From positions 4,082,164-4,146,163 of the forward strand of contig NZ_CP063356.1 in NCBI RefSeq assembly GCF_001866075.3: DNA of 64,000 nucleotides, written 5' to 3'. Below are positions 8,287 to 25,700 of this stretch, piece after piece. Source of the stretch: Anaerobacillus isosaccharinicus. GTDB lineage: Bacteria; Bacillota; Bacilli; Bacillales; Anaerobacillaceae. Position numbers and translations under genes: made by a program. Within the stretch, counting starts at the first letter, position 1; each line of letters opens with the position of its first letter. The notes under the pieces were generated by a model. The model was not told the origin of the DNA and did no database searches. It was given only the letters and a program-made list of their open reading frames with translations.

Positions 8287-9720
8287 TTGTTACCTCAAAT
8301 TATAACCTATTTACTTACTTTTATAAACTACCAAGAACAAGTCATTCGAACATTGCTTACCCTACTAATCGGGAAAAGCATGTTTGATAAACCGACTGAA
8401 GCTCCAGTTAATAAACCTTATCGCAAGCTTCAAGTTGATGATCTACCGATCATTGAAGTTCCCCAAAAACTAGATTTTAGACTTTTATTATCTGAACACC
8501 TGGAGACTAAGGGGAAGCCTCTCAAACCAGTACAAAGACGATCGAAGTCAACACCCGTTCCTTTATCAATGAAATGTCCTACGTGTGGTGCTCCAGCAGA
8601 TTACTTGTATGCGAACAATGGAGCGAAAGGACAATATCAATGTAAGGTGTGTTCGTGCCTTTTCAGTGAGAAAAACCGTTATCTCAAGGAAGCAATCCTG
8701 AAATGCCCTCACTGTTCAAAAACACTCGAAAAAGTGAAGGAAAGAAAAGACTTCCATGTGTACAAGTGTAAAAACGACGCTTGTTCTTATTACCAACAGA
8801 AACGTAATGCGATGACTCAAAAAGAGAAAAATCGGTTCAAAGAAGATCCTCAAGCCTTTAAACTTCGCTATATTTACCGCCAGTTTCACATTGATTTTCA
8901 ACCATTAGCGAAGCATTCACCAAAGAGACCGAGAGTTGATCTATCAAGAATTTATGTGTCTCCACATACGCTTGGACTGATTTTGACTTATCACGTCAAT
9001 TATGGACTTTCAGCCCGTAAAACAGCAGCGTTGATGAAAGATGTACATGGTGTATCAATTTCTCATCAAAGCATTTTAAATTACGAAAATAGTGTGGCAT
9101 TGTGGTTGAAACCTTATATTGATCACTATCCTTACGAGCTTTCAGATCAATTCTGTGGTGACGAAACATACATCCGCGTAAATGGCCGTTGGCATTACCT
9201 GTTTTTCTTTTTTGATGCCGTGAAGAAAGTCATTCTCTCTTATCCTGTGTCACCCAATCGAGATACAGCTACGGCTATTAAAGCGATAGACGAAGTGTTG
9301 TTAAAGCTTAGGAAAATCCCAGAAAACCTAACTTTCGTTGTCGATGGCAATCCCATTTACTTATTAGCACAACACTTTTTTGCCCAGCATCAAATCCCGT
9401 TTGAGGTGATTCAGGTAATTGGCTTAACCAACGAAGACGAGGTATCAAAGGAATATCGACCTCTCAAACAAATTATCGAGCGGCTAAATCGTACCTTTAA
9501 AGGAAACTATCGATCCACTCATGGTTTCGGGTCAGAACATGGTTCTGTTTCTTTTGTGACCTTGTTCGTTGCTTACTTTAACTTTCTAAGACCACATTCA
9601 GCTTTAGAAGGGAAAGTACCAGTAACGCTTCCTGAGCTAGATAAGCTTCCAAACATGCCTGCTAGATGGACAACTCTTATTGGTCTTGCCCAGGATTGGA
9701 TAAGTAAGCAAACTGCCTAA
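8287..9720 (+). CDS. DDE transposase with N-terminal zinc ribbons
   Basis: The 477-aa product has two CxxC...CxxC clusters (CPTCGAP...QCKVC near residue 97; CPHCSK...CKNDAC near residue 138), likely zinc ribbons for end binding. The catalytic domain follows, with GDETYIRVNGRWHYLF (first Asp), VVDGNPIY (second Asp) and IIERLNRTFKGNYRSTHG (Glu). The domain resembles that of IS6/IS240 transposases but the protein is about twice their length because of the N-terminal half. The start is TTG at 8287 after AGAGGAAG. The frame is intact. Confidence 0.88.
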   Translation: MLPQIITYLLTFINYQEQVIRTLLTLLIGKSMFDKPTEAPVNKPYRKLQVDDLPIIEVPQKLDFRLLLSEHLETKGKPLKPVQRRSKSTPVPLSMKCPTCGAPADYLYANNGAKGQYQCKVCSCLFSEKNRYLKEAILKCPHCSKTLEKVKERKDFHVYKCKNDACSYYQQKRNAMTQKEKNRFKEDPQAFKLRYIYRQFHIDFQPLAKHSPKRPRVDLSRIYVSPHTLGLILTYHVNYGLSARKTAALMKDVHGVSISHQSILNYENSVALWLKPYIDHYPYELSDQFCGDETYIRVNGRWHYLFFFFDAVKKVILSYPVSPNRDTATAIKAIDEVLLKLRKIPENLTFVVDGNPIYLLAQHFFAQHQIPFEVIQVIGLTNEDEVSKEYRPLKQIIERLNRTFKGNYRSTHGFGSEHGSVSFVTLFVAYFNFLRPHSALEGKVPVTLPELDKLPNMPARWTTLIGLAQDWISKQTA

Positions 9721-9911: not shown

Positions 9912-10243
9912 CCAAAATGGTAGTATGTGTCAGAGATCCTTAGTTTTCATAGAACTTTTGACACTACCTATTAGACTACAAATTTAAAAAATTGGACAAA
10001 ATATAAATTCGTTCTTCAACTCTTTGCTATGCTTATACAAAATGTAATTGTTTTAATTATACAACAATGATGACTTAAATACTGCCAAAAACTACAATTA
10101 TTAATTGCCATAAACAAGTACTTCTTAAAGTAGTACCGATAGGAAAATGGGCTTAGCGTTGTAAATCCGCATTTTCCTGCGGAATCCTTAAATGATTAAA
10201 TTCCTCATCACCGATTAAGTGTGCGTACACAAAAACATGAATG

Positions 10244-10415
10244 TTAAGCGTATTGATACTCTTTTTGTTGTTTTTCTAAAATTACTGACTCTAAAATTTC
10301 AACAATTCTCAGATCGAAGACTCCTTTTTGCTCTTTCAATAAAACAAAGGCTTCTTCATAAGTAAACGATTGTTTATTTTCACGATACTTCCTGGTAGTT
10401 GTCAACGCACTAAAT
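10244..10415 (-). pseudogene. 3' fragment of an HD-GYP-type phosphohydrolase gene
   Basis: Reading from the Tn3 end gives DALTTTRKYRENKQSFTYEE... then LLKEQKGVFDLRIVEIL and a TAA at 10244. This matches the C-terminal part of HD-GYP / response-regulator HD proteins (typically FDALTSxRPYR...SYEEAxxxI...FDPxxVExF). The 5' part is missing: the frame stops at the Tn3 terminal repeat beginning at 10416, and no continuation is seen beyond the other end at 19313, so a deletion or rearrangement must have followed the insertion. Confidence 0.65.
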
Positions 10416-10453
10416 GGGGAATAGCCAACCTTTTAACGAAAATATACGCTAAG
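10416..10453 (+). repeat. Left 38-bp terminal repeat of the Tn3-family transposon
   Basis: It starts with GGGG and ends GAAAATATACGCTAAG. It truncates the HD-GYP fragment on its left. Confidence 0.75.
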
Positions 10454-10541
10454 ACATTTATGTTCACAGAGAAGTTATTAAAAAAGTTAGTTTTCGAGGC
10501 ATATTTTACCTGAATTTAAATAAAGATATTATATGTACAAG

Positions 10542-12426
10542 ATAGACTCTCGGAATAAATGATGAGTTTATCGAAGATTTGTAAAAAATTTACTGGGAAT
10601 TTCATTAACAGGACAGCAAAGTGATGTGTTTTCATAGTGTTTTCAAAAAAGTGTATACCAAATAAGCCTACGGCTGCTATTTTTTAAAAATGACTAGGCG
10701 CTCTTAGAAAAGATGATTTCTTGGATGTTCAAAGTCTCTTTCTGACTACTGTACCAAGCATCTATGTGTTGACACATCATGATTGAATATAAGCGGACAT
10801 ACCACATTTTTGTAGAGCGATGACGCCCAGATTCTAAGTGATAGTCGACTTTTTCTCTTTTGTTCGAACGTTCAACTGAAGTTCTTCGTTTATAAATCAG
10901 TTTCCACTTTTCAGAAGACCTCGGTGTTTTAGTGAACAGACGAAGATTATCTTGCTTAAACGTATGAAATGTCCGGCCATACTTCGCTTTAGAACACGGA
11001 GTGGAACATGTATTTTTTGTTCCGCAAGCTAGTGGACAACGCCACTTTTGGCGGTTTTGAGATTTGTCAAACCCATTGGGTTTCATTTCCATTCCAATTG
11101 GACAAATAGGAACGCCTAGGGGAGAAATCTGAATATCACTTTGCGTACTGAAGTTTTTCTTTGTTCGAACATTAAGATCAATAAATGGTTCCACATTATG
11201 ATGGTCCAGTAATTCGTAAATCGGTTCTGCATCATGTGCGGCATCGAGAAGGATTTTATCAATTGTGCCCAAGGTGTACCGTTGCGAAAATTCAATTGAA
11301 CCAACCACTAGGCTGACTGAATCATGCCGGGAAGCAGGATGCAGCCGTGGATATAGCGGCAAGTCGTATTGGCTATCGCTAGTGGATATCATGTAGAGAT
11401 GATATCCGTTGAAGTACCTCTCCCTTGAACTATCCCAACCTGAGTCGATGTCAGGTTGAGAATATCGACGAGGATGAGTACAATTCGTTAGTCCTTGGGC
11501 ACTACAATCACAAATAGGTTTGCTCCTTGGGTATCTCGCTGTTTCCACGGGTGTCCCATCTCCAACAACACCAAGGGAATGGGGATCCCCAAGCAAACCC
11601 AATCTCGCTGAAACTTCAAGAAATTGAGATTGAAAAAACGCGTATAATTGATCTCCCGGCAATTGTTTTTGTTTTGAGCCATTGCGTAAATGACGATCCA
11701 CTAATTTTCTAATAATACCAGGGTTTCTAGGAGTTGCTTTTTCACCCTTTTTCGGTTTTTTCTTCTTCTTCTTTTTTCGTTTGAGCTTAATAAAAGGTTT
11801 TACATTAGCCTTCTCAAAACCTGATAGCCGTCTGAAGAAGTCATAAAAAGTACCGACACCTGGAACATCCCCAGGTTCAAAGCCGCTAAGGATCGTGTAA
11901 AGAGGAACACGATGGAGTTGGTTCACCCATTCTGTAATACTCAGGGTCGGACTTGTCAATAAACACAAAAGATAAGAGCGAAGCATGGAAGCAGGATCAC
12001 GTGGCTCAGGACCTTTAACTGAATATGAATCATGAAGCCACGTAGTGGTAAACGAAAGATCCGTGATCCATAACTTCGAGATAATAGTCCAATCTTTTTG
12101 TACGAGAGTCAGTATACCGCCTGAGTAATGAGTATTTAATTGGTCTAAAACGAAGTTTTGATATGAGATATGTGGTATTAGCGCAGGTTTCATTTAAATC
12201 CCCCATTTCACCGTATTGTTAGGAAGTCAATTCCTCCTCGGCGATTATTGGGGTTCCACTAAAAAGTCAAGTGTTTTTTTAGTTTTTTTATGATATTTTT
12301 CAACAATTAATTTCCAATTGAAGAAGAAAACTAAAGTAAAAATCCCACCTAGAAATAGGAGGGATACAAATAAATTGGTTCAAGAAAACCTTGAGCCACA
12401 AGGCTCGGCAAATGCCGAGAGTCTAT
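10542..12426 (-). mobile_element. IS4/IS1182-clan element, copy A
   Basis: The 1885-bp element has perfect 12-bp terminal repeats (ATAGACTCTCGG / CCGAGAGTCTAT) and a 4-bp duplication CAAG at 10538-10541 and 12427-12430. By eye it matches copy B (13501-15385) in inverted orientation. Its transposase-proximal end faces the gene at 12451, and GGAGGG (12437-12442) lies exactly 6 nt beyond the duplication. Confidence 0.95.
10694..12193 (-). CDS. DDE transposase of IS copy A
   Basis: The 499-aa product contains a lysine-rich linker near residue 140 (KRKKKKKKKPKK), a first catalytic Asp probably in VVGDGTPVE, a second in the KILLDAAHDAEPIY region, and YKRRTSVERSNKREK near residue 435. The last segment fits the Y-(2)-R-(3)-E-(6)-K signature of IS4-related transposases, including IS1182. 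A cysteine cluster (CPLACGTKNTCSTPC) lies between the second Asp and the Glu. GGGGGA lies 5 nt before the ATG. The protein sequence is the same as that of copy B. Confidence 0.9.
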   Translation of the reverse strand: MKPALIPHISYQNFVLDQLNTHYSGGILTLVQKDWTIISKLWITDLSFTTTWLHDSYSVKGPEPRDPASMLRSYLLCLLTSPTLSITEWVNQLHRVPLYTILSGFEPGDVPGVGTFYDFFRRLSGFEKANVKPFIKLKRKKKKKKKPKKGEKATPRNPGIIRKLVDRHLRNGSKQKQLPGDQLYAFFQSQFLEVSARLGLLGDPHSLGVVGDGTPVETARYPRSKPICDCSAQGLTNCTHPRRYSQPDIDSGWDSSRERYFNGYHLYMISTSDSQYDLPLYPRLHPASRHDSVSLVVGSIEFSQRYTLGTIDKILLDAAHDAEPIYELLDHHNVEPFIDLNVRTKKNFSTQSDIQISPLGVPICPIGMEMKPNGFDKSQNRQKWRCPLACGTKNTCSTPCSKAKYGRTFHTFKQDNLRLFTKTPRSSEKWKLIYKRRTSVERSNKREKVDYHLESGRHRSTKMWYVRLYSIMMCQHIDAWYSSQKETLNIQEIIFSKSA

Positions 12427-12450
12427 CAAGTTAAAAGGAGGGAACAAAAT

Positions 12451-12999
12451 TTGAAATTAATTATTAAGGCAATACTGGTACTTACTGTTTTTTTATATCC
12501 AGCATATAGTATCTATACAGCTGCGCAATATAGTGATCCCCAACTAGAACAATTAAAAAAGATTAGTGATTTTAAATTACTAACTCCAAAATCATTATCA
12601 GAAAGTTCATTGGAAATTAAAGAGCCCTATCCCTTAAATTTATCTGAGAAAGTGACAATGGTAAGGTTACATTACTTTGAAAATGAAAAGTTGAAAGTAG
12701 GAATAACTCAACATCAACTAAATAATTATAAGACCATACAAGAGGAAATTATAGTGAATTTTGGTACAGGCGATGTCGAAATTAAGAAAGTTGCTAAAGA
12801 GTTTGTGCCTGATTTTAGTACAGGCGAAAAGGTTAATATAAATGGAAATGAGGCAAGGTTTGTACCGTGGGGACAAAAAGAAGGTGAAAATATCCCTGGT
12901 GGTATTCTGTTTTGGGGGCAGGAAGGAACATATATTGAAATGGACTCTTCTTCAATAACCAAGAGAGAAATGATAAAAATTGCAAAATCGATGCAATAA
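12451..12999 (+). CDS. Membrane-anchored protein with DUF4367-like C-terminus
   Basis: The 182-aa product has an N-terminal hydrophobic segment (IIKAILVLTVFLYPAYS) that could be a signal anchor. The C-terminal part (NEARFVPWG, GGILFWGQEGTYIEM, then SSITKREMIKIAKSM) resembles the DUF4367 domain found in anti-sigma-type extracytoplasmic proteins. I choose TTG at 12451 because AAAGGAGGG lies 8 nt upstream. A longer in-frame start at 12391 lies inside the insertion sequence. Copy A separates the ribosome binding site from the native promoter (a TATTAT-like -10 sits left of the element). It is a passenger of the Tn3-type unit. Confidence 0.65.
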   Translation: MKLIIKAILVLTVFLYPAYSIYTAAQYSDPQLEQLKKISDFKLLTPKSLSESSLEIKEPYPLNLSEKVTMVRLHYFENEKLKVGITQHQLNNYKTIQEEIIVNFGTGDVEIKKVAKEFVPDFSTGEKVNINGNEARFVPWGQKEGENIPGGILFWGQEGTYIEMDSSSITKREMIKIAKSMQ

Positions 13000-13050
13000 T
13001 TAGAGTAAAAAAAGAAGTCCAATTCACGGACTTCTTTTTTTACTCTAATT
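12998..13050. terminator. Perfect 23-bp bidirectional terminator between convergent genes
   Basis: Arms at 12998-13020 and 13028-13050 are perfectly complementary with a 7-nt loop, and A/T runs give U-tracts on both strands. It overlaps the stop codons of both flanking genes. Confidence 0.9.
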
Positions 13051-13477
13051 ATTTATAAACTTTACCAGCTGCTATTGTAACCTGATACCAACCTTCTGTA
13101 TCATTATTTGTTTTAGACTCCCAAATGAGTTGATAATCCCCACTAGGTACATCGGTAAAAGTCAGTGTACCATTATAATCTCTTGGAATAGACTGTCTTT
13201 TATCTGCGCCTGTTTTAGTATGAAGTAACCTCCATTCAATATTTGCTTGCTCTCCTGAATGGATACCGTATTGATTTATTCTTACGTTTACATTACCTGT
13301 AGATCCTGTTGGTCTAAAATCAATAAAAATACCATCCCAATCACCACTTTTAGTTGCACTAATTCGATATTGTGTACTTGTGACGCTTGCATACACAGAA
13401 AATGGAACCATAAATAATAGAGTTAGTACAATTAGAAACGTTAGCCTCTTTTTACCAAGTACATTTTTAAAATCCAT
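13049..13477 (-). CDS. Secreted protein of unknown function
   Basis: The 142-aa product has a signal peptide (KKRLTFLIVLTLLFMVPFSVYAS) and a mature domain of about 112 residues that looks like a beta-sandwich (NVNVRINQYGIHSGEQANIEW, GTLTFTDVPSGDYQLIWES, GWYQVTIAAGKVYK). No catalytic motif is seen and the family is not recognised. AGGAGG lies 8 nt before the ATG. Copy B inserted upstream, 6 nt beyond that motif, cutting the leader. It is convergent with the DUF4367-like gene and a passenger of the Tn3-type unit. Confidence 0.65.
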   Translation of the reverse strand: MDFKNVLGKKRLTFLIVLTLLFMVPFSVYASVTSTQYRISATKSGDWDGIFIDFRPTGSTGNVNVRINQYGIHSGEQANIEWRLLHTKTGADKRQSIPRDYNGTLTFTDVPSGDYQLIWESKTNNDTEGWYQVTIAAGKVYK

Positions 13478-13507
13478 AAAATCATCCTCCTAAAAATTTT
13501 ATAGACT

Positions 13508-13583
13508 CTCGGCATTTGCCGAGCCTTGTGGCTCAAGGTTTTCTTGAACCAATTTATTTGTATCCCTCCTATTTCTAGGTGGG
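13508..13583. promoter_or_regulatory. Structured tip of the 1885-bp IS: three hairpins
   Basis: CTCGGCATTTGCCGAG (13508-13523) and CCTTGTGGCTCAAGG (13524-13538) form two abutting hairpins right at the end. A third, CCCTCCTATTTCTAGGTGGG (13564-13583), is followed by ATTTTTA in the transposase direction, so it looks like a terminator protecting the transposase from incoming transcription. Read outward it holds a GGAGGG in a stem capped by GAAA. The same structures occur in copies A and C. Confidence 0.65.
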
Positions 13584-13656
13584 ATTTTTACTTTAGTTTT
13601 CTTCTTCAATTGGAAATTAATTGTTGAAAAATATCATAAAAAAACTAAAAAAACAC

Positions 13657-13685
13657 TTGACTTTTTAGTGGAACCCCAATAATCG
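13657..13685 (+). promoter_or_regulatory. Putative transposase promoter of the 1885-bp IS
   Basis: TTGACT (13657-13662), a 17-nt spacer and TAATCG (13680-13685) stand about 50 nt before the transposase ATG. The -35 is good and the -10 weak. The sequence is the same in copy A; copy C has GCAACC instead of GGAACC in the spacer. Confidence 0.4.
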
Positions 13686-13733
13686 CCGAGGAGGAATTGA
13701 CTTCCTAACAATACGGTGAAATGGGGGATTTAA

Positions 13734-15233
13734 ATGAAACCTGCGCTAATACCACATATCTCATATCAAAACTTCGTTTTAGACCAATTAAATACTCATT
13801 ACTCAGGCGGTATACTGACTCTCGTACAAAAAGATTGGACTATTATCTCGAAGTTATGGATCACGGATCTTTCGTTTACCACTACGTGGCTTCATGATTC
13901 ATATTCAGTTAAAGGTCCTGAGCCACGTGATCCTGCTTCCATGCTTCGCTCTTATCTTTTGTGTTTATTGACAAGTCCGACCCTGAGTATTACAGAATGG
14001 GTGAACCAACTCCATCGTGTTCCTCTTTACACGATCCTTAGCGGCTTTGAACCTGGGGATGTTCCAGGTGTCGGTACTTTTTATGACTTCTTCAGACGGC
14101 TATCAGGTTTTGAGAAGGCTAATGTAAAACCTTTTATTAAGCTCAAACGAAAAAAGAAGAAGAAGAAAAAACCGAAAAAGGGTGAAAAAGCAACTCCTAG
14201 AAACCCTGGTATTATTAGAAAATTAGTGGATCGTCATTTACGCAATGGCTCAAAACAAAAACAATTGCCGGGAGATCAATTATACGCGTTTTTTCAATCT
14301 CAATTTCTTGAAGTTTCAGCGAGATTGGGTTTGCTTGGGGATCCCCATTCCCTTGGTGTTGTTGGAGATGGGACACCCGTGGAAACAGCGAGATACCCAA
14401 GGAGCAAACCTATTTGTGATTGTAGTGCCCAAGGACTAACGAATTGTACTCATCCTCGTCGATATTCTCAACCTGACATCGACTCAGGTTGGGATAGTTC
14501 AAGGGAGAGGTACTTCAACGGATATCATCTCTACATGATATCCACTAGCGATAGCCAATACGACTTGCCGCTATATCCACGGCTGCATCCTGCTTCCCGG
14601 CATGATTCAGTCAGCCTAGTGGTTGGTTCAATTGAATTTTCGCAACGGTACACCTTGGGCACAATTGATAAAATCCTTCTCGATGCCGCACATGATGCAG
14701 AACCGATTTACGAATTACTGGACCATCATAATGTGGAACCATTTATTGATCTTAATGTTCGAACAAAGAAAAACTTCAGTACGCAAAGTGATATTCAGAT
14801 TTCTCCCCTAGGCGTTCCTATTTGTCCAATTGGAATGGAAATGAAACCCAATGGGTTTGACAAATCTCAAAACCGCCAAAAGTGGCGTTGTCCACTAGCT
14901 TGCGGAACAAAAAATACATGTTCCACTCCGTGTTCTAAAGCGAAGTATGGCCGGACATTTCATACGTTTAAGCAAGATAATCTTCGTCTGTTCACTAAAA
15001 CACCGAGGTCTTCTGAAAAGTGGAAACTGATTTATAAACGAAGAACTTCAGTTGAACGTTCGAACAAAAGAGAAAAAGTCGACTATCACTTAGAATCTGG
15101 GCGTCATCGCTCTACAAAAATGTGGTATGTCCGCTTATATTCAATCATGATGTGTCAACACATAGATGCTTGGTACAGTAGTCAGAAAGAGACTTTGAAC
15201 ATCCAAGAAATCATCTTTTCTAAGAGCGCCTAG
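13734..15233 (+). CDS. DDE transposase of IS copy B
   Basis: The 499-residue product has the same sequence as that of copy A, including the YxxRxxxExxxxxxK signature. GGGGGA lies 5 nt before the ATG. The two intact copies in inverted orientation, 1.07 kb apart, imply recent insertion or gene conversion and give a substrate for inversion of the interval. Confidence 0.9.
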   Translation: MKPALIPHISYQNFVLDQLNTHYSGGILTLVQKDWTIISKLWITDLSFTTTWLHDSYSVKGPEPRDPASMLRSYLLCLLTSPTLSITEWVNQLHRVPLYTILSGFEPGDVPGVGTFYDFFRRLSGFEKANVKPFIKLKRKKKKKKKPKKGEKATPRNPGIIRKLVDRHLRNGSKQKQLPGDQLYAFFQSQFLEVSARLGLLGDPHSLGVVGDGTPVETARYPRSKPICDCSAQGLTNCTHPRRYSQPDIDSGWDSSRERYFNGYHLYMISTSDSQYDLPLYPRLHPASRHDSVSLVVGSIEFSQRYTLGTIDKILLDAAHDAEPIYELLDHHNVEPFIDLNVRTKKNFSTQSDIQISPLGVPICPIGMEMKPNGFDKSQNRQKWRCPLACGTKNTCSTPCSKAKYGRTFHTFKQDNLRLFTKTPRSSEKWKLIYKRRTSVERSNKREKVDYHLESGRHRSTKMWYVRLYSIMMCQHIDAWYSSQKETLNIQEIIFSKSA

Positions 15234-15499
15234 TCATTTTTAAAAAATAGCAGCCGTAGGCTTATTTGGTATACACTTTTTTGAAAACACTATGAAAACA
15301 CATCACTTTGCTGTCCTGTTAATGAAATTCCCAGTAAATTTTTTACAAATCTTCGATAAACTCATCATTTATTCCGAGAGTCTATTTTTATTTAATCTAT
15401 TAATCTAGTGATCTACCATTATAATTACATAAATTACATATTTGGATATAGGGAAAAATGTCTTTTTTTTGTAAATTTAACCAATATATAAGTTTTTGC

Positions 15500-15645
15500 T
15501 AGTACACTTTACCAAAAACTATATTTTTTGTAATGAACAAAATATTTTTTTACATCCTCTATTTTAAAAGGTTTATAGATTACCAAAAATATTTACCAAA
15601 TGTATTACCAAATACTTTTACAAAAATATACTATCGTAATACAAT
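15500..15645 (+). promoter_or_regulatory. Probable res site of the Tn3-family transposon
   Basis: Just upstream of tnpR there are repeated TTTACCAAA-like blocks (near 15508, 15580, 15593, 15606 and 15618, with inverted TTTTTGTAA-like partners). Clustered resolvase binding sites at this position are the rule in Tn3 elements. Individual subsites were not delimited. Confidence 0.45.
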
Positions 15646-15676
15646 GAATATAAATAATTGCCTAGGAGGCATTCTT

Positions 15677-16234
15677 ATGTTTATTGGATATGCAAGAGTT
15701 TCTTCTGTTGATCAGAATTTAGATCGCCAAATTCTATTACTCACCGAATATGGGTGTGAAAAAATAATACAGGAAAAATTTACTGGAACAGTAAAAATCA
15801 GAGATGGACTTAGTTCACTCTTAGATGTAATAAGGAATGGTGATACAGTTATAGTAGAAAGCATTTCACGTTTGGGAAGAAAAACGCTTGATATCCTTTC
15901 TATTATTCAATATTTTGATGAAATTGGCGTGAAATTTATATCAATAAAAGAAAAAATGGATACAGGAACATCAACAGGTAAAGCGATGTTTCAAATGATG
16001 TGTGTTATTGCAGAGCTAGAAAGGAATTTAATTGTCGAAAGAGTAAAAGAGGGTTTAGAAGCAAGTAAAAGGCGAGGGAAAAAACTAGGAAGACCAAAAA
16101 TAGATCAAAGTAAAATTGATATTGCTTTGAGAATGTATGACAGTAAAGAATATTCAATCAATGAAATTGTTGATGGCACAGGTGTTTCACAGGGTTCTCT
16201 ATATCGAGCAATTAATAAAAGAAAAATCCAATAA
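15677..16234 (+). CDS. tnpR: Serine resolvase TnpR
   Basis: The 185-aa product is a small serine recombinase that resolves Tn3 cointegrates at res. It shows GYARVSS with the nucleophilic serine, Q-x-LDRQ, ESISRLGRKTLDIL, then the long helix (FQMMCVIAELERNLIVERVKEG) and a C-terminal helix-turn-helix (SINEIVDGTGVSQGSLYRAI). I choose the ATG at 15677 with AGGAGG upstream; an earlier in-frame start at 15533 lies in the res region and lacks a ribosome binding site. tnpA follows after 16 nt on the same strand. Confidence 0.93.
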   Translation: MFIGYARVSSVDQNLDRQILLLTEYGCEKIIQEKFTGTVKIRDGLSSLLDVIRNGDTVIVESISRLGRKTLDILSIIQYFDEIGVKFISIKEKMDTGTSTGKAMFQMMCVIAELERNLIVERVKEGLEASKRRGKKLGRPKIDQSKIDIALRMYDSKEYSINEIVDGTGVSQGSLYRAINKRKIQ

Positions 16235-16250
16235 AAAAGGTGGGAATTCT

Positions 16251-19217
16251 ATGTATGTAAGAGTAAGAGAATTATTAACTCCTGAAGAGCGGTTACAATA
16301 TATGACTATACCTTCTAATTTAAATGAGTGGGAATTAGGGACATATTTTACTTTTACTCAATATGACATAGATGTTATTAAAAGACACCGAAGAGATTAC
16401 AACCGATTAGGATTTGCTATTCAACTTTGTTTATTACGATATCTTGGATGGACTATATCTGATATTAAAGACATACCAGAAGAAATAGTAAAATATGTTG
16501 CTAAGCAAATTGGTGTAAATACGGGAGAATATAGCTCATATTTTAAAAGAGAAGCAACGAAATATGAACATTTGCAAACAATCCGTGAAGAATATGGTTT
16601 CTCAACCTTTACACTTAGTGACTATCGGTCACTTTCAAAGTATTTATTCCCTCACGCCATGGAAAATGGGAACGCTACTCACTTAATTCAGACTGCTCTA
16701 GAGCAATTACGTAAACAAAAAAAGATCTTACCTGCCATGGCGACGATTGAAAGATCTGTATGGGAAGTGCGTAAGAGAGCAGAAGAAAAAATATATAAAC
16801 TACTTGGGGCATCACTCACTGCATCTCAAATCGAAAAACTTGACCTAATTTTATCCACTATGCCCAATAGCCACAAAACATTTCTCGCCTGGTTAAAAGA
16901 AACACCAGGAAACTTTTCACCGGATTCTTTTTTAAGAGTTATTGAAAAATTGGAGTATATAAGAAATTTAAAGCTCCACATTAATACTGAAAATTTACAC
17001 CCAAATCGTCTGCGCCAACTTTCGAGGGTTGGTGCAAGGTATGAACCACACTCTTTCAGACGATTTAGAAATCAAAAGAAATATGCAATTTTAATTACAT
17101 ATCTCCTCGAACTAGTCCAAGACTTAACTGACCAAGCATTTGAAATACATGACCGGCAAATCATGTCATTGCTCTCTAAAGGAAGAAAAGCACAAGAAGA
17201 AATTCAGAAACACAATGGAAAGACAATTAATGAAAAAGTTGTGCAATTTGCTGATCTAGGTTCTGCTCTAATAAAAGCAAAAAAAGAAGGTATTGACCCT
17301 TTTATTGAATTAGAATTAGTTATGCCATGGGACAAGCTTGTAGCCTCAGTAGAAGAGGCTAAACAGTTAGCACGCCCTATTGATTACGATTATTTAGACT
17401 TATTGGAAAAGAAATTTTATAAACTCCGGAAATATACGCCCACACTACTAAAATCACTAGAATTTCGTTCTAACAAATCTGCAGAACCATTAATGAGAGC
17501 GATTGATGTAGTTCGAGAAATGAATGAGACTGGAAAACGTAAAGTTCCTGAAGGAGCTCCTCTTGATTTTGTTTCTAACCGCTGGCAAAAACATGTTTAT
17601 GATGAAGATGGAACAATTAATCGTCATTACTATGAGATGGCTGTATTAACAGAACTTAGAAACTTTGTTCGTTCTGGTGATGTGTCGATCATTGGTAGCC
17701 GCCAATATAAAGATTTTGATGAGTACCTTATATCCACTGAAGAATGGGAACAAATAAAGCCAACCCAAACCAAATTGGCTGTGAGTTCCTCTGAAAATGA
17801 TTATTTAGATGAACGAATAAACTCCCTTCAAAGACGTTTGGAATGGGTATCTAATAATGTTGAACATTTGGAAGGAGTTAATTTAGAAAATGGCCGCCTT
17901 CGTATTGATCGTTTAGAGAAAGATGTTCCAGATGAGGCACGGACTTTTAGTTTATCACTTTATGAAATGTTACCACGAATAAAACTAACAGATTTGTTGA
18001 TGGAGGTTGCTAATTGGACTGGATTTCATGAGCAGTTTGTTCATGCATCAACTAACAGAGGTCCGAATGAAGATGAAACTAAAATTCTAATGGCTACCAT
18101 AATGGCAATGGGGACAAATGTTGGATTAACAAAAATGGCAGAAGCAACACCAGGTATTTCTTATCGACAAATGGCAAATACAGCTCAATGGAGACTTTAT
18201 GAAGATGCAATGAACAAAGCACAAGCAGTACTTGTTAATTTTCATCATCAACTATTTTTGTCATCTTATTGGGGTGATGGAACTACCTCTTCTTCTGATG
18301 GTATGCGCGTACAAATTGGTGTAGCATCCCTATATGCAGATGCTAATCCACACTATGGTACAGGTAAAGGTGCTACAATTTATAGGTTTGTAAGTGACCA
18401 ATTCTCAAGCTTTTACACTAAGGTAATAAATACAAATGCTAGAGATGCAGTTCATGTGATTGATGGGCTACTTCATCACGAAACTGATCTCGCAATAGAA
18501 GAACATTACACCGATACAGCCGGATACACAGATCAAGTATTTGGGTTGAGTCATTTGCTAGGATATCGCTTTGCCCCTAGACTTCGTGACTTAGGAGATT
18601 CTAAATTATACACCATTGGAAAATCTAATCAGTTTCCAAAATTAGAAAAGTTGTTAAGGGGGCAAATAAATACAAAAATCATTAAAGAAAATTATGATGA
18701 TGTACTTCGACTTGCTCACTCTATCCGTGAAGGTACTGTTTCCGCATCGCTAATCATGGGTAAATTAGGATCTTACGCACGACAAAATAGATTATCGACT
18801 GCACTTAGAGAAATGGGGAAAATCGAAAAAACTATTTTTATTCTTGATTACGTTTCAAGCGAAACCCTTCGGCGTAAAATTCATCGAGGATTAAATAAAG
18901 GAGAAGCAATGAATGCGTTAGCTAGGGGGATTTTTTTTGGTAAACGTGGAGAACTGAGGGAAAAAGCATTGCAAGACCAATTACAGAGGGCTAGTGCACT
19001 AAATATTATTATAAATGCTATTAGCGTATGGAATACCGTATACCTAGCCAAAGCAGTTGAATACCGAAAGAACCAGCTAACATTTAATGATGAATTTTTA
19101 AAGCATATTTCTCCACTAGGATGGGAGCATATCAACTTTTTAGGAGAATATAAGTTTGATAAGAATAATTTAACTACATTAAATTCTTTACGGCCATTAA
19201 ATAGTAAAATTTATTGA
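16251..19217 (+). CDS. tnpA: Tn3-family transposase TnpA
   Basis: The 988-aa product has the typical Tn3 TnpA length. The N-terminal DUF4158-type DNA-binding region begins VRVRELLTPEERLQYM. The C-terminal DDE domain includes YWGDGTTSSSDGMRVQIG with the first Asp, EEHYTDTAGYTDQVFG with the second, and a Glu in the GKRGELREKALQDQ region. I choose the ATG at 16251 with AGGTGGG upstream. The upstream in-frame extension overlaps tnpR. The gene is intact, so the transposon may still move. Confidence 0.93.
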   Translation: MYVRVRELLTPEERLQYMTIPSNLNEWELGTYFTFTQYDIDVIKRHRRDYNRLGFAIQLCLLRYLGWTISDIKDIPEEIVKYVAKQIGVNTGEYSSYFKREATKYEHLQTIREEYGFSTFTLSDYRSLSKYLFPHAMENGNATHLIQTALEQLRKQKKILPAMATIERSVWEVRKRAEEKIYKLLGASLTASQIEKLDLILSTMPNSHKTFLAWLKETPGNFSPDSFLRVIEKLEYIRNLKLHINTENLHPNRLRQLSRVGARYEPHSFRRFRNQKKYAILITYLLELVQDLTDQAFEIHDRQIMSLLSKGRKAQEEIQKHNGKTINEKVVQFADLGSALIKAKKEGIDPFIELELVMPWDKLVASVEEAKQLARPIDYDYLDLLEKKFYKLRKYTPTLLKSLEFRSNKSAEPLMRAIDVVREMNETGKRKVPEGAPLDFVSNRWQKHVYDEDGTINRHYYEMAVLTELRNFVRSGDVSIIGSRQYKDFDEYLISTEEWEQIKPTQTKLAVSSSENDYLDERINSLQRRLEWVSNNVEHLEGVNLENGRLRIDRLEKDVPDEARTFSLSLYEMLPRIKLTDLLMEVANWTGFHEQFVHASTNRGPNEDETKILMATIMAMGTNVGLTKMAEATPGISYRQMANTAQWRLYEDAMNKAQAVLVNFHHQLFLSSYWGDGTTSSSDGMRVQIGVASLYADANPHYGTGKGATIYRFVSDQFSSFYTKVINTNARDAVHVIDGLLHHETDLAIEEHYTDTAGYTDQVFGLSHLLGYRFAPRLRDLGDSKLYTIGKSNQFPKLEKLLRGQINTKIIKENYDDVLRLAHSIREGTVSASLIMGKLGSYARQNRLSTALREMGKIEKTIFILDYVSSETLRRKIHRGLNKGEAMNALARGIFFGKRGELREKALQDQLQRASALNIIINAISVWNTVYLAKAVEYRKNQLTFNDEFLKHISPLGWEHINFLGEYKFDKNNLTTLNSLRPLNSKIY

Positions 19218-19264
19218 AGAAAAAAGCCTAAATTTCTTAGAGTAAAATATTTAGGCTTTTTTCT
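19218..19264 (+). terminator. Terminator after tnpA
   Basis: A perfect 16-bp stem (AGAAAAAAGCCTAAAT 19218-19233 with 19249-19264) carries a T-run in the 3' arm, directly after the tnpA stop. Confidence 0.85.
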
Positions 19265-19275
19265 GAAAAATAGGT

Positions 19276-19313
19276 CTTAGAGTATATTTTGGTTAAAATG
19301 TTGTCCCGACCCC
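19276..19313 (-). repeat. Right 38-bp terminal repeat of the Tn3-family transposon
   Basis: On the minus strand it reads GGGGTCGGGACAAC... to ...AAAATATACTCTAAG. The outer flank is TAATA (19314-19318). Confidence 0.8.
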
Positions 19314-19371
19314 TAATAGTTAACGGTGGTCAAATTAGTCTGATAGCTAAATAAAATATATCAGTAACAGT

Positions 19372-19393
19372 GGGCTTGTTTTTTTCCAAGCCC
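19372..19393 (+). terminator. Intrinsic terminator outside the Tn3 right end
   Basis: GGGCTTG (19372-19378) pairs with CAAGCCC (19387-19393), followed by CTCTTATTTTTTT. It is the end of an otherwise lost upstream gene or serves Tn3 read-through. Confidence 0.6.
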
Positions 19394-19472
19394 CTCTTAT
19401 TTTTTTGCATGAAAATAGTTGACGGAGTTCAACTATTTTCAACAAAATAAATCTACTTCCCCACGTTATTAC

Positions 19473-19745
19473 TCACTCTTCCTTCGCGATTACAACTCTA
19501 CTAATTAAGAAACTAAAGACACTGGATAGAAAAAGTAGCACTAGATAATGAAACATATTAAAGGTCAAATACCAATTAAATACTACACTATAATAGATAA
19601 CCGTGTTTGGAAGTATTGCTCCGACCAAAACAATGATCATTCCTCTTATAGCGCCAAATCCCAATTTCGCATAGTTCTTCCTTTGAATTAACAAGGTTAA
19701 TAGGCCAACAATAATACAACTAACAATATAAAAAATTACTAGCAA
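19473..19745 (-). CDS. Small three-helix membrane protein
   Basis: The 90-aa product is mostly hydrophobic, with about three membrane segments (LVIFYIVSCIIVGLLTLL, GMIIVLVGAILPNTVIYY, FHYLVLLFLSSVFSFLI) and charged ends (RKNYAK, AKEE). The start is TTG at 19745 with AAGGAGGG 7 nt upstream. IS copy C inserted immediately upstream of that ribosome binding site, separating it from a GTTAAAAT-like -10 that now lies beyond the element at about 21660. No family is recognised. Confidence 0.65.
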   Translation of the reverse strand: MLVIFYIVSCIIVGLLTLLIQRKNYAKLGFGAIRGMIIVLVGAILPNTVIYYSVVFNWYLTFNMFHYLVLLFLSSVFSFLISRVVIAKEE

Positions 19746-19768
19746 TTAAATACCCTCCTTCTAATTCC

Positions 19769-21653
19769 ATAGACTCTCGGCATTTGCCGAGCCTTGTGGC
19801 TCAAGGTTTTCTTGAACCAATTTATTTGTATCCCTCCTATTTCTAGGTGGGATTTTTACTTTAGATTTCTTTTTCAATTGGGAATTAATTGTTGAAAAAT
19901 ATCATAAAAAAACTAAAAAAACACTTGACTTTTTAGTGCAACCCCAATAATCGCCGAGGAGGAATTGACTTCCTAACAATACGGTGAAATGGGGGATTTA
20001 AATGAAACCTACGCTAATACCACATATCTCATATCAAAACTTCGTTTTAGACCAACTAAATACTCATTACTCAGGCGGTATACTGACTCTCGTACGAAAA
20101 GATTGGACTATTATCTCAAAGTTATGGATCACGGATCTTTCTTTTACTACTACTTGGCTTCATGATTTATATTCAGTTAAAGGTCCTGAGCCACGTGATC
20201 CTGCTTCCATGCTTCGCTCTTATCTTTTGTGTTTATTGACAAGTCCGACCCTGAGTATTACAGAATGGGTGAACCAACTCCATCGTGTTCCTCTTTACAC
20301 GATCCTTAGCGGCTTTGAACCTGGGGATGTTCCAGGGGTCGGTACTTTTTATGACTTCTTCAGACGGCTATCAGGTTTTGAGAAGGCTAATGTAAAACCT
20401 TTTATTAAGCTCAAACGAAAAAAGAAGCAGAAGAAAAAACCGAAAAAGGGTGAAAAAGCAACTCCTAGAAACCCTGGTATTATTAGAAAATTAGTAGATC
20501 GTCATTTACGCCATGGTTCAAAACAAAAACAATTGCCGGGAGATCAATTATACGCGTTTTTTCAATCTCAATTTCTTGAGGTTTCAGCGAGATTGGGTTT
20601 GCTTGGAGATCCCCATTCCCTTGGTGTTGTTGGAGATGGGACACCTGTGGAAACAGCGAGTTACCCAAGAAGCAAACCTATTTGTGATTGTAGTGCCCAA
20701 GGACTAACGAATTGTACTCATCCTCGTCGATATTCTCAACCTGACATCGACTCAGGTTGGGATAGTTCAAGGGAGAGGTACTTCAACGGATATCATCTCT
20801 ACATGATATCCACTAGCGATAGCCGATTCGACTTACCGCTATATCCACGGCTACATCCTGCTTCCCGGCATGATTCAGTCAGCCTAGTGGTTAGCTCAAT
20901 TGAATTTTCGCAACGGTACACCTTGGGCACAATTGATAAAATCCTTCTCGATGCCGCACATGATGCAGAACCGATTTACGAATTACTGGACCATCATAAT
21001 GTGGAACCATTTATTGATCTTAATGTTCGAACAAAGAAAAACTTCAGTACGCAAAGTGATATTCAGATTTCTCCCCTAGGCGTTCCTATTTGTCCAATTG
21101 GAATGGAAATGAAACCCAATGGGTTTGACAAATCTCAAAACCGCCAAAAGTGGCGTTGTCCACTAGCTTGCGGAACAAAAAATACATGTTCCACTCCGTG
21201 TTCTAAAGCGAAGTATGGCCGGACATTTCATACGTTTAAGCAAGATAATCTTCGTCTGTTCACTAAAACACCGAGGTCTTCTGAAAAGTGGAAACTGATT
21301 TATAAACGAAGAACTTCAGTTGAACGTTCGAACAAAAGAGAAAAAGTCGACTATCACTTAGAATCTGGGCGTCATCGCTCTACAAAAATGTGGTATGTCC
21401 GCTTATATTCAATCATGATGTGTCAACACATAGATGCTTGGTACAGTAGTCAGAAAGAGACTTTGAACATCCAAGAAATCATCTTTTCTAAGAGCGCCTA
21501 GTCATTTTTAAAAAATAGCAGCCGTAGGCTTATTTGGTATACACTTTTTTGAAAACACTATGAAAACACATCACTTTGCTGTCCTGTTAATGAAATTCCC
21601 AGTAAATTTTTTACAAATCTTCGATAAACTCATCATTTATTCCGAGAGTCTAT
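19769..21653 (+). mobile_element. IS4/IS1182-clan element, copy C
   Basis: The 1885-bp element has the same 12-bp ends as A and B. The 4-bp duplication TTCC lies at 19765-19768 and 21654-21657. Its sequence differs from A and B at scattered positions, so it is an older or independent arrival. The transposase-proximal tip faces the minus-strand gene starting at 19745, with GGAGGG exactly 6 nt from the duplication. Confidence 0.95.
20002..21501 (+). CDS. DDE transposase of IS copy C
   Basis: The 499-residue product differs from copies A and B by roughly ten substitutions in the first 310 residues (for example KPTLIP for KPALIP, KQKKKP in the lysine stretch, TASYPRS for TARYPRS, SRFDLP for SQYDLP). 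The C-terminal 190 residues are identical. The clustering of differences in the 5' part hints at partial gene conversion with another copy. The frame is intact. Confidence 0.9.
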   Translation: MKPTLIPHISYQNFVLDQLNTHYSGGILTLVRKDWTIISKLWITDLSFTTTWLHDLYSVKGPEPRDPASMLRSYLLCLLTSPTLSITEWVNQLHRVPLYTILSGFEPGDVPGVGTFYDFFRRLSGFEKANVKPFIKLKRKKKQKKKPKKGEKATPRNPGIIRKLVDRHLRHGSKQKQLPGDQLYAFFQSQFLEVSARLGLLGDPHSLGVVGDGTPVETASYPRSKPICDCSAQGLTNCTHPRRYSQPDIDSGWDSSRERYFNGYHLYMISTSDSRFDLPLYPRLHPASRHDSVSLVVSSIEFSQRYTLGTIDKILLDAAHDAEPIYELLDHHNVEPFIDLNVRTKKNFSTQSDIQISPLGVPICPIGMEMKPNGFDKSQNRQKWRCPLACGTKNTCSTPCSKAKYGRTFHTFKQDNLRLFTKTPRSSEKWKLIYKRRTSVERSNKREKVDYHLESGRHRSTKMWYVRLYSIMMCQHIDAWYSSQKETLNIQEIIFSKSA

Positions 21654-21742
21654 TTCCTAATTTTAACATAATCCTCCGCTTGCATTGCTTTCTCTTTTAT
21701 AAAACGAAGAGAGAACCTTTTTTAAGTCCTCTCAGGATCGTA

Positions 21743-22468
21743 TTAGTTTTCAACTGCAAGTCTCAACTCTTCAAACCATTGAATAGTTAAAGCTTTTTCT
21801 TTTGAATTAATGAATAAATACTCTTCACCTTTTTGAATGTAAATAAATGGTGGATTGTCACGATATAAAAATAACCTTCCGTTACCTAAGCCTTCAAGAC
21901 GAAATCGTCCTTTTAACCTTTCATTTAAAGCGTAACCATTCGTTCTCATTTGAACTTTTGGAAGTTTGTCTACTAGCTCAAAACTAGTTAACTCCTCTAA
22001 AGGCCATTCTACACCGTAGGTACCACTTACTTGCAATTCATTTTCCTTTATTGTCAGTTCATTTGCGCTGCCACCAACTGAAATTGCAGCACCAATTACT
22101 CCAATTGTAAACACCATCGTTACGAATAAGATGATGACATTTCTTTTCCTCGTTCTTTCTAGATCAAGCTTTGAAATGTAAAATAAATAGGCAAATAAAT
22201 AAATCGTCATCACAACCCAAGAAAATAAGATCGCGTTTGAAACGTTAATAAAGTGAAGAACTAGACCTCCTAGCAAAATAAATCCTGAGTGAACCAATCC
22301 TCTTCCAGAAGCTTGAGGGTAACCATTTTTTATTAATTCCTGTTGTTCTTCTTCTGATTTCATCGCAAATCCTGAAATGAGACCATATGCTTCTTTTTTA
22401 AGAATAAGATACCCAAATAAGAAAAACATGCCGACCATCATAAGTTGAACCAATATTAGTACTATCAC
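21743..22468 (-). CDS. DUF3784-type membrane protein with C-terminal PH-like domain
   Basis: About 241 aa. The N-terminal part has transmembrane helices flanking LISGFAMKSEEEQQELIKNG, the pattern of the DUF3784 family. Two further helices follow near residues 85-110, then another pair around residue 130. The C-terminal 100 residues (ELTIKENELQVSGTYGVEWPLEE, MRTNGYALNERLKGRFRLEG, PPFIYIQKGEEYLFIN) resemble bacterial PH-like domains of membrane proteins. I prefer GTG at 22468 with GAGGTG 9 nt upstream; the longer frame starts inside that ribosome binding site. Function unknown. Confidence 0.7.
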   Translation of the reverse strand: MIVLILVQLMMVGMFFLFGYLILKKEAYGLISGFAMKSEEEQQELIKNGYPQASGRGLVHSGFILLGGLVLHFINVSNAILFSWVVMTIYLFAYLFYISKLDLERTRKRNVIILFVTMVFTIGVIGAAISVGGSANELTIKENELQVSGTYGVEWPLEELTSFELVDKLPKVQMRTNGYALNERLKGRFRLEGLGNGRLFLYRDNPPFIYIQKGEEYLFINSKEKALTIQWFEELRLAVEN

Positions 22469-22763
22469 TTTTTCCAACACCTCACAATCACCAAATAATT
22501 CTTAAAAGAGGTTTTTAAAAATTTTTAAGAAAATCCTCGGTAAATAAACTAGACTTCGAGTAAAAGTTCATAAAACCAGTAGCCATCACCTGAGTGATCT
22601 TTCCTTTTTCGATTTTTTTCCACCTCTTCACCTTATCTGAATAACCGCTTTTGATCTTTCGTTTTCAAATAAAGCCTTAAAGTTGTTCTCACATTTATTT
22701 ACGAAAAAAAATGCAATAGTTCCATTTTTATAATTAGAATGTTAATTTAGTTTAAGCAAACCC

Positions 22764-25700
22764 CTAAATCATTAATATCTCGCGAATATCATCTTCTGTT
22801 AGTGTTGTTGAAGTTTTCTCATCGATAATCTGCTCAATGAGATGTCGTTTTTTCTCTTGCAGTTCATCAATCTTTTCTTCAATTGAACCACGAGTAACTA
22901 GCTTTATAACCTGAACAACGTTTGTCTGACCAATGCGATGGGCACGATCTGCCGCTTGTTCCTCAACTGCTGGATTCCACCAAAGGTCATAAAGAATGAC
23001 GGTGTCGGCTCCTGTTAAATTAAGTCCTGTCCCTCCAGCTTTTAAGGAAATTAGAAATAAATCACGTTCGCCTGAATTAAATCGAGTACAAGTTTCCACC
23101 CTTTCCTCTGATGGCGTTTGGCCATCTAAGTAGAAAAATGCCCTTCCTTGATCCGCTAGTTCTCTACTAATTAAACCAAGCATTTTCGTAAATTGGGAAA
23201 AAATTAAGACTCTGCGACCAGAAAGCTTTGCTTCTTCTAAAATTTGTAACAGCAGTTCAAATTTCGCGGAACTTCCTTTGTAGCTGTCAACAAATAAGGC
23301 TGGGTGACAACAAATTTGCCTTAGCCGCGTTAACCCTGCCAGGATTTTAATCTTATTTTTTCGGATTGTATCCTTGTCTAGATGCTTTAGTGTGTCATTC
23401 TTTAGCTTCGCTAAATATGCAGCATAAAGCTTTTTCTGTTCAGCAAGTAACTCCACTCTTTGGGTTAGTTCAATTTTTTCAGGGAGCTCTAAAAGAACAT
23501 CTTCTTTCATTCTTCTTAGTAAAAATGGACGGATCCGCCTTGCTATTGTTTTCCTTGTCAAATTACTATATTGCTTTAAGCCTTGGAAAAGTTCAGGAAA
23601 GACGACATGAAAGATAGACCATAGCTCTTCTAATGAATTTTCGACCGGTGTACCAGTAAGGGCGAAGCGTTGACTCGCTTGAATTTTTTTCACAGCACGG
23701 GCAGTTTGCGTGACTGGATTTTTGAACGCTTGTGCCTCGTCAAAAAACACAGTGTGAAAGTTCTGTTTTTCAAACCACTTAATGTCTCGCCGTAGTAGTG
23801 GATAAGAAATAATGAGAACATCACAATCGGTCATATCCTTTTGGATCTTCATCCGCTCGTGCTTTTGGCCATCAACGACAACAGCTTGTATATCTGGTGC
23901 AAATTTCATTAATTCACTAAGCCAGTTATACGTCAATGATGACGGACAAACAATCAGCACTGGTTGCTTTTTTTCACGGATTTCAGGAAGCGCAGAAACA
24001 ATGAATGTTATGCTTTGCAGCGTTTTTCCAAGTCCCATATCATCGGCGAGGATGCCGCCAAACCCAAGACTTGCAAGTTGCTTCATCCATTTGAAGCCAT
24101 GAATTTGGTAGTCCCTTAAAGTTAATTTTAGACTCTCTGGCACCTCGAAACCCAATCGCTCTGGATGGCGTATTTTTTCTAAAAATTGAGTAAACGATTC
24201 CTCGATTGTGAATAGACTACCTTCGTTAACCGAGTCAATGAGTTGAAGCCCTCTTACGATTGGTAGATTTAACGTACTCTCGAGATCTTCTTTTTGGATG
24301 GGCAAAGCCTGTAAAAACTGTTGCATTTCTTCAAATTCTTTTGTTTCTAGCGACATAAGCGATCCATTACGGAGGCGATAATACTTCCGTTTTTCTTCTA
24401 GGGCCTCTAACACCTCACGAATATCATTTTCAGGAATGCCATCCAGCTCAAATTTAAATTCAAGCCAATTGGTTCTTTCTTTTTGCAACTTAATCCTAAT
24501 TCGAGGTGGGATATTCCCTTTGAAAATCCTCATTTTTACAGCAGTCGTTGCGTAGATTTGAACAAATTTTTGCAGCTTAGGGACGACACTATTTAAAAAC
24601 TGATATTCCAATTCTTCATTATGCAACAAGTATCCGCCGTCTGTTTTGGCAAACGAACTTTCCTCCATCATTTCAAGAATGACTTCTTCTTTTTCATAAT
24701 CTCTAATTAGTGCTGACCCCGATTTTGGTTCTCGACTTTCTAGAGGGTTTAGAACAATATGTTCATAATGAAATTCCAGTCCTGCAAGAAGTTTGTTGTT
24801 TACACGATCCAAGAATAATTTGGCACTCAACGGTTTTTTCACAAGCTCGTGGGCAATGGCACTTGAAATGTGAAACTCACCTAGTCGTCTAAGACCTGGT
24901 ACGACTTTTTCCAGAAAAAAATGACTTTGTTCATTTGGAATTGGAATTCGATTGGTTCCTGAAGCTTCCAACATCACCTTTAAATCAGAGAGTCGTTTGC
25001 AATCGTCAGCTTTCAGTTGAGAAAGTTTTCCATCAGCTAACACGGATTGATAGGAGCTTAAAACAACCATTTGCTTCAATCCATCTATTATTAATTGAAA
25101 ACCTTTGTCTTCAGCTTTATTAAAGTCAAACCTTAATGAGAGTTGCTCTTTTGAGCGATTGAGCCCTTCGAAAATATTGCCTCCGTATTCTAGCTTTACG
25201 AGTGGCGCTCTCTCAAGTAACGGCACAAGCCTGTCCCAATAAGATGGAGAAATTAACAATTGATGGCTTGGGTTAGCCAGTAGCGACTCATCATTAGAAA
25301 TTTTTTCATCAACAACGTTTTGAGCCAGCTCCATCATTACCGCATCTGTTTCCATTGAAAAACAATGGATGTTTGGATCGTAAGTAAAGAGATTAGAGAG
25401 TTTAATAGGGAGTCCTTTTTTTACATGCGCTAGAAAAGCTCTAACATTTTCAACGTTCGTTTGTCCAACCCGAACTTCTACTGCAAGCATTTGTTGTTCC
25501 TTACCAACCGGTTTCCATGTAAACTGAGCATCGATGACTTGTCTTTTTTCAAAATGAAGCTGGTGACCACTTTTTCGAATTGGTTGATCATCAAATAAGG
25601 TTAGCAAGCCATTTGTCAATACTTGATCAGATCCCGGATTGAGACTGATAGGAGTCGCCCCATTTCGCTGTTGGGCATAGATTGAAAGTAAAACAGCCGC

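Follow-up and report, generated by a model that had tools for sequence, protein, structure and literature searches.

Three times within the stretch of Anaerobacillus isosaccharinicus DNA analysed here (NCBI RefSeq assembly GCF_001866075.3, contig NZ_CP063356.1, positions 4,082,164 to 4,146,163 of the forward strand), the same insertion sequence (IS), here called IS-A, lies at the same short distance from a Shine-Dalgarno (SD) core and turns the same end towards it. This stretch of 64,000 nucleotides is hereafter the window and is numbered 1-64,000. The question raised by the locus is whether an IS can take the SD word as its target, or whether such a position is merely the place where insertions are tolerated. 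We consider it highly probable that IS-A belongs to a family of DDE elements in which the transposase complex finds its target by an SD-like DNA word, at a fixed register and in a fixed orientation; we infer that the transposase itself is the reader of that word.

IS-A has the ends ATAGACTCTCGG and measures 1885 bp in each of the three window copies, which are oriented by their transposase. Copy 1 (10542-12426, minus strand; transposase 10694-12193) is flanked by the duplication CAAG (12427-12430, plus strand, with its second copy at 10538-10541), and the target word AGGAGG (12436-12441, plus strand) follows 5 nt past the duplication and precedes a frame that starts with TTG (12451-12999). In the case of copy 2 (13501-15385, plus strand; transposase 13734-15233), the duplication is AAAA as read on the minus strand (13497-13500, repeated at 15386-15389) and the word AGGAGG (13486-13491, minus strand) is like a ribosome binding site (RBS-like) for the frame 13049-13477, RBS-like meaning that a start codon lies 3-14 nt past the word and opens a frame of at least 40 codons. 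Copy 3 (19769-21653, plus strand; transposase 20002-21501, of the 98% type) carries the duplication GGAA, again in the minus-strand reading (19765-19768, repeated at 21654-21657), and an AGGAGG (19754-19759, minus strand) that is RBS-like for the frame 19473-19745. The first-pass annotation had reported these three copies with exactly 6 nt between duplication and GGAGG, and in this it was accurate.

The rule extends to the genome as a whole, a single contig of 5.23 Mb with 57 full IS-A transposase copies and with 57 forward and 57 reverse perfect tips. The tips are paired in 56 copies, which measure 1885 (39 copies), 1899 (10), 1888 (5) or 1896 bp (2); the 57th (4062119-4065754) is interrupted, close to the distal end, by about 1.76 kb of inserted DNA. 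At the proximal, i.e. transposase-side, end 47 of the 56 border non-IS DNA and nine border another copy. GGAGG stands exactly 10 nt from the proximal tip in 41 of these 47 flanks (39 AGGAGG, 2 TGGAGG) and 11 nt from it in four, the remaining two having the one-mismatch forms AGAAGG and AGGAGC. Among the four 11-nt sites, the duplication is 5 bp long at two and the tip of L058 starts with an extra base, with the distance from duplication to word staying at 5 in all three; only L041 is truly one base off. The exact layout of a 4-bp duplication, 5 nt and AGGAGG is found at 34 of the 47 sites. As a background, AGGAGG occurs 134 times at about 800,000 positions (400 kb of the same genome, both strands), which gives a binomial P of about 2e-139 for its presence at one offset in 39 of 47 flanks, with the sites taken as independent and the offset named beforehand from three of these 47. 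The distal flanks serve as a control: none of the 46 has GGAGG within 18 nt, and GGAGG or CCTCC occurs within 45 nt in two only, at 19 and 24 nt. That one and the same tip faces the word, as proposed from the three window copies, thus holds genome-wide (GGAGG at 10 or 11 nt from 45 of the 47 proximal tips).

A second element in the same genome, IS-B, is 46-47% identical to IS-A and is present in 13 copies of 1830 bp. In twelve of the 13, [A/T]GAGGTG stands at exactly 10 nt from the tip, and the duplication is 5 bp long in 12 of the 13, so that the GAGG core lies at the same distance from the tip as in IS-A. AGGAGG followed by TG is found at none of 43 IS-A sites versus 13 of 134 background words (P 0.04); IS-B instead uses GAGGTG. 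Because the two elements share the register while the word of IS-B is shifted, their flanks lead us to conclude that they read neighbouring parts of the SD word.

Relatives with an identity down to 32% occur elsewhere in the Bacillota. In an even draw over the phylum a profile search matched 24 of 398 genomes at 1e-60, in an even draw over the order a single protein query matched 8 of 397, and within the genus 2 of 7 genomes matched, the own genome being included each time; no match was found in phages at 1e-5. One of them, 84-85% identical to IS-A, is the element of the Halalkalibacterium halodurans type (genome G171), and AGGAGG stands at offset 9 in all 12 copies with a readable flank, out of 18. 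The expectation of the first-pass annotation that most sites would have GGAGG in register was borne out in this genome and, with variation in the word, in relatives. Over the family, IS-A's 47 flanks included, a G-rich SD-like word is present at offset 6-15 in 121 of 128 proximal flanks and in 40 of 42 types, where the list of accepted words, like that used for the internal word described below, was drawn up post hoc, after the sequences had been seen. The variants include GGGGGTG in 3/3 copies of genome G512, AGGAGGTGA in 2/2 copies of G411 and CGGGGGCG next to a copy on an Alicyclobacillus plasmid.

The following loci were left out of this compilation: L117-L124, which are represented by G171; L132, L140, L143-L149 and L151 (partial or no full tip); L150, a partial copy with AGGAGG in its flank; L175, L198 and L231 (partial); L176, L204 and L232 (contig edge at the tip); L179 (no tip found) and L197 (tip uncertain, word present); and L199 and L207, which are the same as L126 and as the sequence of L189, respectively. 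Matches in G322, G268, G022, G407:C37, G482:C23, G507, G521, G701, G772, G476:C14 and G837:C4, six G171 copies at contig ends, two partial G516 copies and the plasmid matches H3, H5 and H6 were not included either. For L183-L185 the second-ranked candidate tip was used (the first-ranked for L184), picked by likeness to L186.

One could explain such sites without any choice of target, namely by random insertion of which the only survivors lie between a promoter and an SD. Some survivor bias is indeed possible, as 33 of the 47 IS-A sites are RBS-like, whereas the same simple rule picks out 64 of 129 AGGAGG words taken as background (P 0.017) and, among 10,000 random positions, 929. Mere tolerance, however, would be expected to yield spread distances instead of the exact register seen in 41 flanks, and it does not account for the sites outside leaders, at which the word, exact or nearly so, is kept. 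Five IS-A sites lie inside open frames (matched by hand), two of them in sense (L042, AGGAGG; L049, TGGAGG) and three antisense to the enclosing frame (L033 and L053, both AGGAGG; L062, AGGAGC). In addition, terminator-like hairpins that start with an SD-like word hold insertions of the family at their 5' arm (by eye), as at the IS-B sites L072 and L077 and at L181 and L214. In total 14 of the 47 IS-A sites are not RBS-like, at least two of which (L045 and L073) have an ATG slightly further on and may be real; the same applies to 6 of 12 sites in G171, 8 of 15 pooled from G516, G481 and Thermoanaerobacterium, and 4 of 13 IS-B sites. Because of these non-RBS-like sites, the in-frame insertions and the relatives in terminator-like hairpins, what is read at the target appears to be a word in the DNA, irrespective of whether it works as an RBS. 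The proposal of the first-pass annotation that target choice recognises the RBS motif therefore stands with respect to motif, distance and end, yet apparently not with respect to RBS function. Likewise, the three antisense sites partly bear out what that annotation had named as grounds against its proposal, i.e. copies in both orientations relative to genes, yet the word itself stays in place: the orientation of the insertion is tied to the word and not always to the gene.

The same sites bear on a further possibility, in which the transposase is brought to an active RBS by the translation machinery of the host, that is, by the 30S subunit or by anti-SD RNA bound to nascent mRNA. The words do remain SD-like throughout the family, and PMC10132070 offers a precedent in an IS whose insertions keep a fixed distance to a site bound by a host protein. 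Translation does not lead one to expect the use of antisense in-frame sites and terminator-like hairpins, however, nor that IS-A and IS-B favour different sub-words within one genome, and we regard recruitment by the translation machinery as unlikely.

Recognition of a word by the transposase complex is also in line with the repeated use of single sites. IS-A forms head-to-tail arrays at nine sites, and in five of these (L031, L051, L059, L065 and L067, the last with one extra base) the spacer between the copies is the duplication repeated; the outermost distal flank was not read for L065. In L031, L051, L059 and L067 the paired copies are distinct at 51-75 columns, and for both of them a nearer or identical copy exists elsewhere, because of which we consider them to be separate insertions at one nucleotide and not local duplications, while in L065 both copies are identical. 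The spacer differs from the duplication in the other four arrays (L034, L040, L043 and L055). The array at L055 consists of exactly the same pair of differing copies as that at L051, with different outer duplications at both sites, which fits movement of the pair as a composite unit. Moreover, duplications are exchanged between the neighbouring inverted sites L040/L041 and L043/L044 (G000:C1:896085-917388 and 1093802-1110576), which suggests two chromosomal inversions via recombination between inverted IS-A copies. With exact register, in-frame sites and repeat hits on one nucleotide taken together, we reject tolerance of leader insertions, an explanation that seems to us scarcely tenable; that tolerance alone would not suffice had been anticipated from the three window copies.

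The mechanism that we propose is then as follows. The transposase complex would recognise the SD-like word (AGGAGG for IS-A, [A/T]GAGGTG for IS-B, GGGGGTG and others for relatives) and make a staggered cut, mostly of 4-5 bp, by which the word would end up on the transposase-proximal side, separated from the duplication by some 5-7 nt. As the asymmetric word is always turned towards the proximal end, the orientation of insertion would be fixed, and as SD words are frequent, mostly non-coding and oriented, most insertions would fall in 5' leaders and leave the SD and the start codon intact. The duplication would regenerate the target, so that a site can be re-used and head-to-tail arrays are formed.

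A comparable word is present within the element itself. On the same strand, inside the proximal tip, a G-rich SD-like word was found in all 42 types (one copy, the first, was read per type), starting 66-78 nt from the tip in 41 and at 65 nt in one; the density is about 4.2 types per position in the 66-78 nt stretch versus 0.06 elsewhere in the last 140 nt. In the window copies it reads AGGAGG at 12357-12362 (plus strand), 13565-13570 (minus) and 19833-19838 (minus), each 70 nt inside the tip (positions read by eye). The internal word resembles the target of its own element more closely than those of other elements: no permutation out of 20,000 equalled the likeness at the level of types, a figure that we do not rely on since the types are related, and across 13 hand-made clusters P is 0.012. 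IS-A targets favour AGGAGGGA, IS-A's own internal form (9 of 43 versus 7 of 134 background words, P 0.004, in a comparison chosen post hoc); the H. halodurans-type element has the same internal form and shows no such preference (1 of 12 targets). Tentatively, the internal word may represent a second site for whatever reads the target, a possibility to be taken seriously. We are more doubtful about self-addressing, in which the internal word, via the transposase or an outward RNA, would act as a template that sets which SD variant is targeted; were it true, this would be a self-addressed DDE transposon family with the docking word of the ribosome as a genome-wide safe harbour.

An outward RNA could also do the targeting by itself, in that a transcript from the proximal end, with its SD-like word and hairpins, would pair with the target. 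The fixed place of the internal word and its likeness to the target agree with this, and RNAalifold, run on 18 related ends without a shuffled control, gave two hairpins between the internal word and the tip, with one position showing four pair types in 18/18. Furthermore, L031 (G000:C1:200500-205700) implies that transcription leaves or crosses the IS, for here a 3.8-kb IS-A pair separates a T-box leader (RF00230) from the SD of hisS. This hisS is the only match in the genome over the hisS cut-off (286.75), a second match scoring 213 bits and thus below it. The gene should be essential, so that transcription presumably must leave or cross the pair. A simple scan of the outward strand, the one that reads towards hisS, yielded nothing promoter-like close to the tip, its sole match on that strand lying at 14471-14443, inside the transposase gene, and promoter-like sites were fewer than in shuffles (3 versus 5.6). 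The word-target link is absent within clusters (P 0.49) and the likeness is weaker when wobble pairing is scored (P 0.022), and the fixed distance is also what a protein-DNA complex would give. Rfam gave no match at gathering score in window positions 10000-22800, and a short outward reading frame that begins at the internal word (by eye) has stop codons that vary between relatives. To our knowledge, no DDE IS of this type is RNA-guided, and we hold guidance by RNA to be quite unlikely.

Several observations weigh against recognition of a fixed word by the transposase complex, or at least against its being the whole explanation. The over-representation of RBS-like sites among those of IS-A implies that survival after insertion or an AT-rich context also contributes; the nine bases preceding the IS-A word are A or T at 355 of 423 positions, the corresponding share being 76% for RBS-like and 65% for the remaining background AGGAGG words. 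One IS-A site (L056) is without a duplication and no partner for it was located, whereas among the IS-B sites L077 is without the 5-bp duplication and L078 has GGGGTG. Over the family, 7 of the 128 flanks do not have the word as defined, most of them having a weaker G-rich form, and L135 and L226, both left out of the compilation, have a tip but no such word. The tip-to-word distance drifts in distant members (7-15 nt), and correction for relatedness leaves only a weak likeness between the internal word and the target.

How, then, does the family relate to known transposases? The window protein has 499 residues and matches Pfam DDE_Tnp_1 (36.2 bits, cut-off 23), a model that 19 of 27 aligned members match; the candidate catalytic residues D212, D317/D321 and E441 are invariant in all 27. 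Six cysteines (228, 230, 238, 364, 386 and 400, in the regions 228-238 and 364-400) are invariant in the 27 relatives as well and possibly bind metal. An AlphaFold model (pLDDT 85, pTM 0.85) has Tn5 transposase as its best solved structure in Foldseek (E 7e-5, with a TM of only about 0.3). Y-2-R-3-E-6-K is the signature of the IS4 family, and residues with that spacing (Y434, R437, E441 and K448) are invariant in 12/12 sequences, of which R437 and E441 alone are in the invariant/90% lists of the 27 members; the target rule of IS4/Tn5 differs from that of the present elements. All 27 members match the NCBIfam model of IS1182 (NF033551) at E <= 0.001, the only other match at that level, with the IS4 models of the library unchecked, being to IS5_4 (2 members); the window protein fails the equivalog test for IS1182 (59.3 bits versus a cut-off of 270). 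A DDE transposase of about 500 residues, terminal inverted repeats and a 4-bp duplication are IS1182-like traits, albeit common to other families too. Judged by these profile matches, we place the transposase, a DDE enzyme with a distant relationship to IS1182, on a separate branch near that family and not within it.

The family shares the DDE transposase with IS1182 members such as ISPse1 and IS1272, and the 4-bp duplication of IS-A is also tabulated for ISPse1 in PMC3281130. According to PMC5678879, IS1272 targets inverted repeats and some IS1182 members target palindromes, whereas the targets of IS-A and IS-B are one-sided SD-like words and not palindromes, a few sites being terminator-like hairpins. 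The nearest in geometry are the ISAjo2-type elements of the IS1202 family (PMC10132070), which all lie in one orientation, a fixed 5 bp away from a short motif of the host, the XerC site of pdif/dif, and make a 5-bp duplication; no further targeting proteins are given there, and XerC is proposed to interact with the transposase. Their target is thus a recombinase-bound dif site, whereas the present one is the SD word, with no bound host protein known and, by extrapolation, well over a thousand occurrences per genome. The IS110/IS1111 seekRNA elements resemble the present family in element-specific target choice and have a non-coding region (PMC11187229), but they combine a DEDD transposase with a guide RNA, whereas the present transposase is of the DDE type.

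In the open-access literature searched, no IS that targets SD words is described, which agrees with the first-pass annotation; an earlier record is possible in subscription papers, ISfinder and preprints, which lay outside its scope. One candidate, the AGGAGG in PMC2887853, was rejected, as there it belongs to annotation methods and is not an IS target. Recognition of the SD word would explain the tandem arrays and the mostly gene-oriented insertions, would predict landing sites in Bacillota genomes, and offers for study a simple DDE transposase with a strong one-sided sequence choice. Yeast Ty elements insert just upstream of tRNA genes, and the present family would be their bacterial counterpart, namely a transposon that aims at the near-universal word at the start of genes.

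Some minor observations concern the surroundings of the copies. The DNA between two IS-A copies of the window (15533-19217) includes a resolvase-like gene and a transposase of the Tn3 family (999 bits), and at 8287-9720 there is a transposase-like frame with matches to IS6, IS66 and IS3 models, all below cut-off. Elsewhere in the genome, two pairs of similar downstream frames (L037 with L041, and two sites in L044) have IS-A before the corresponding SD in each; one pair is tyrosine recombinase-like by eye and the other encodes a short protein.

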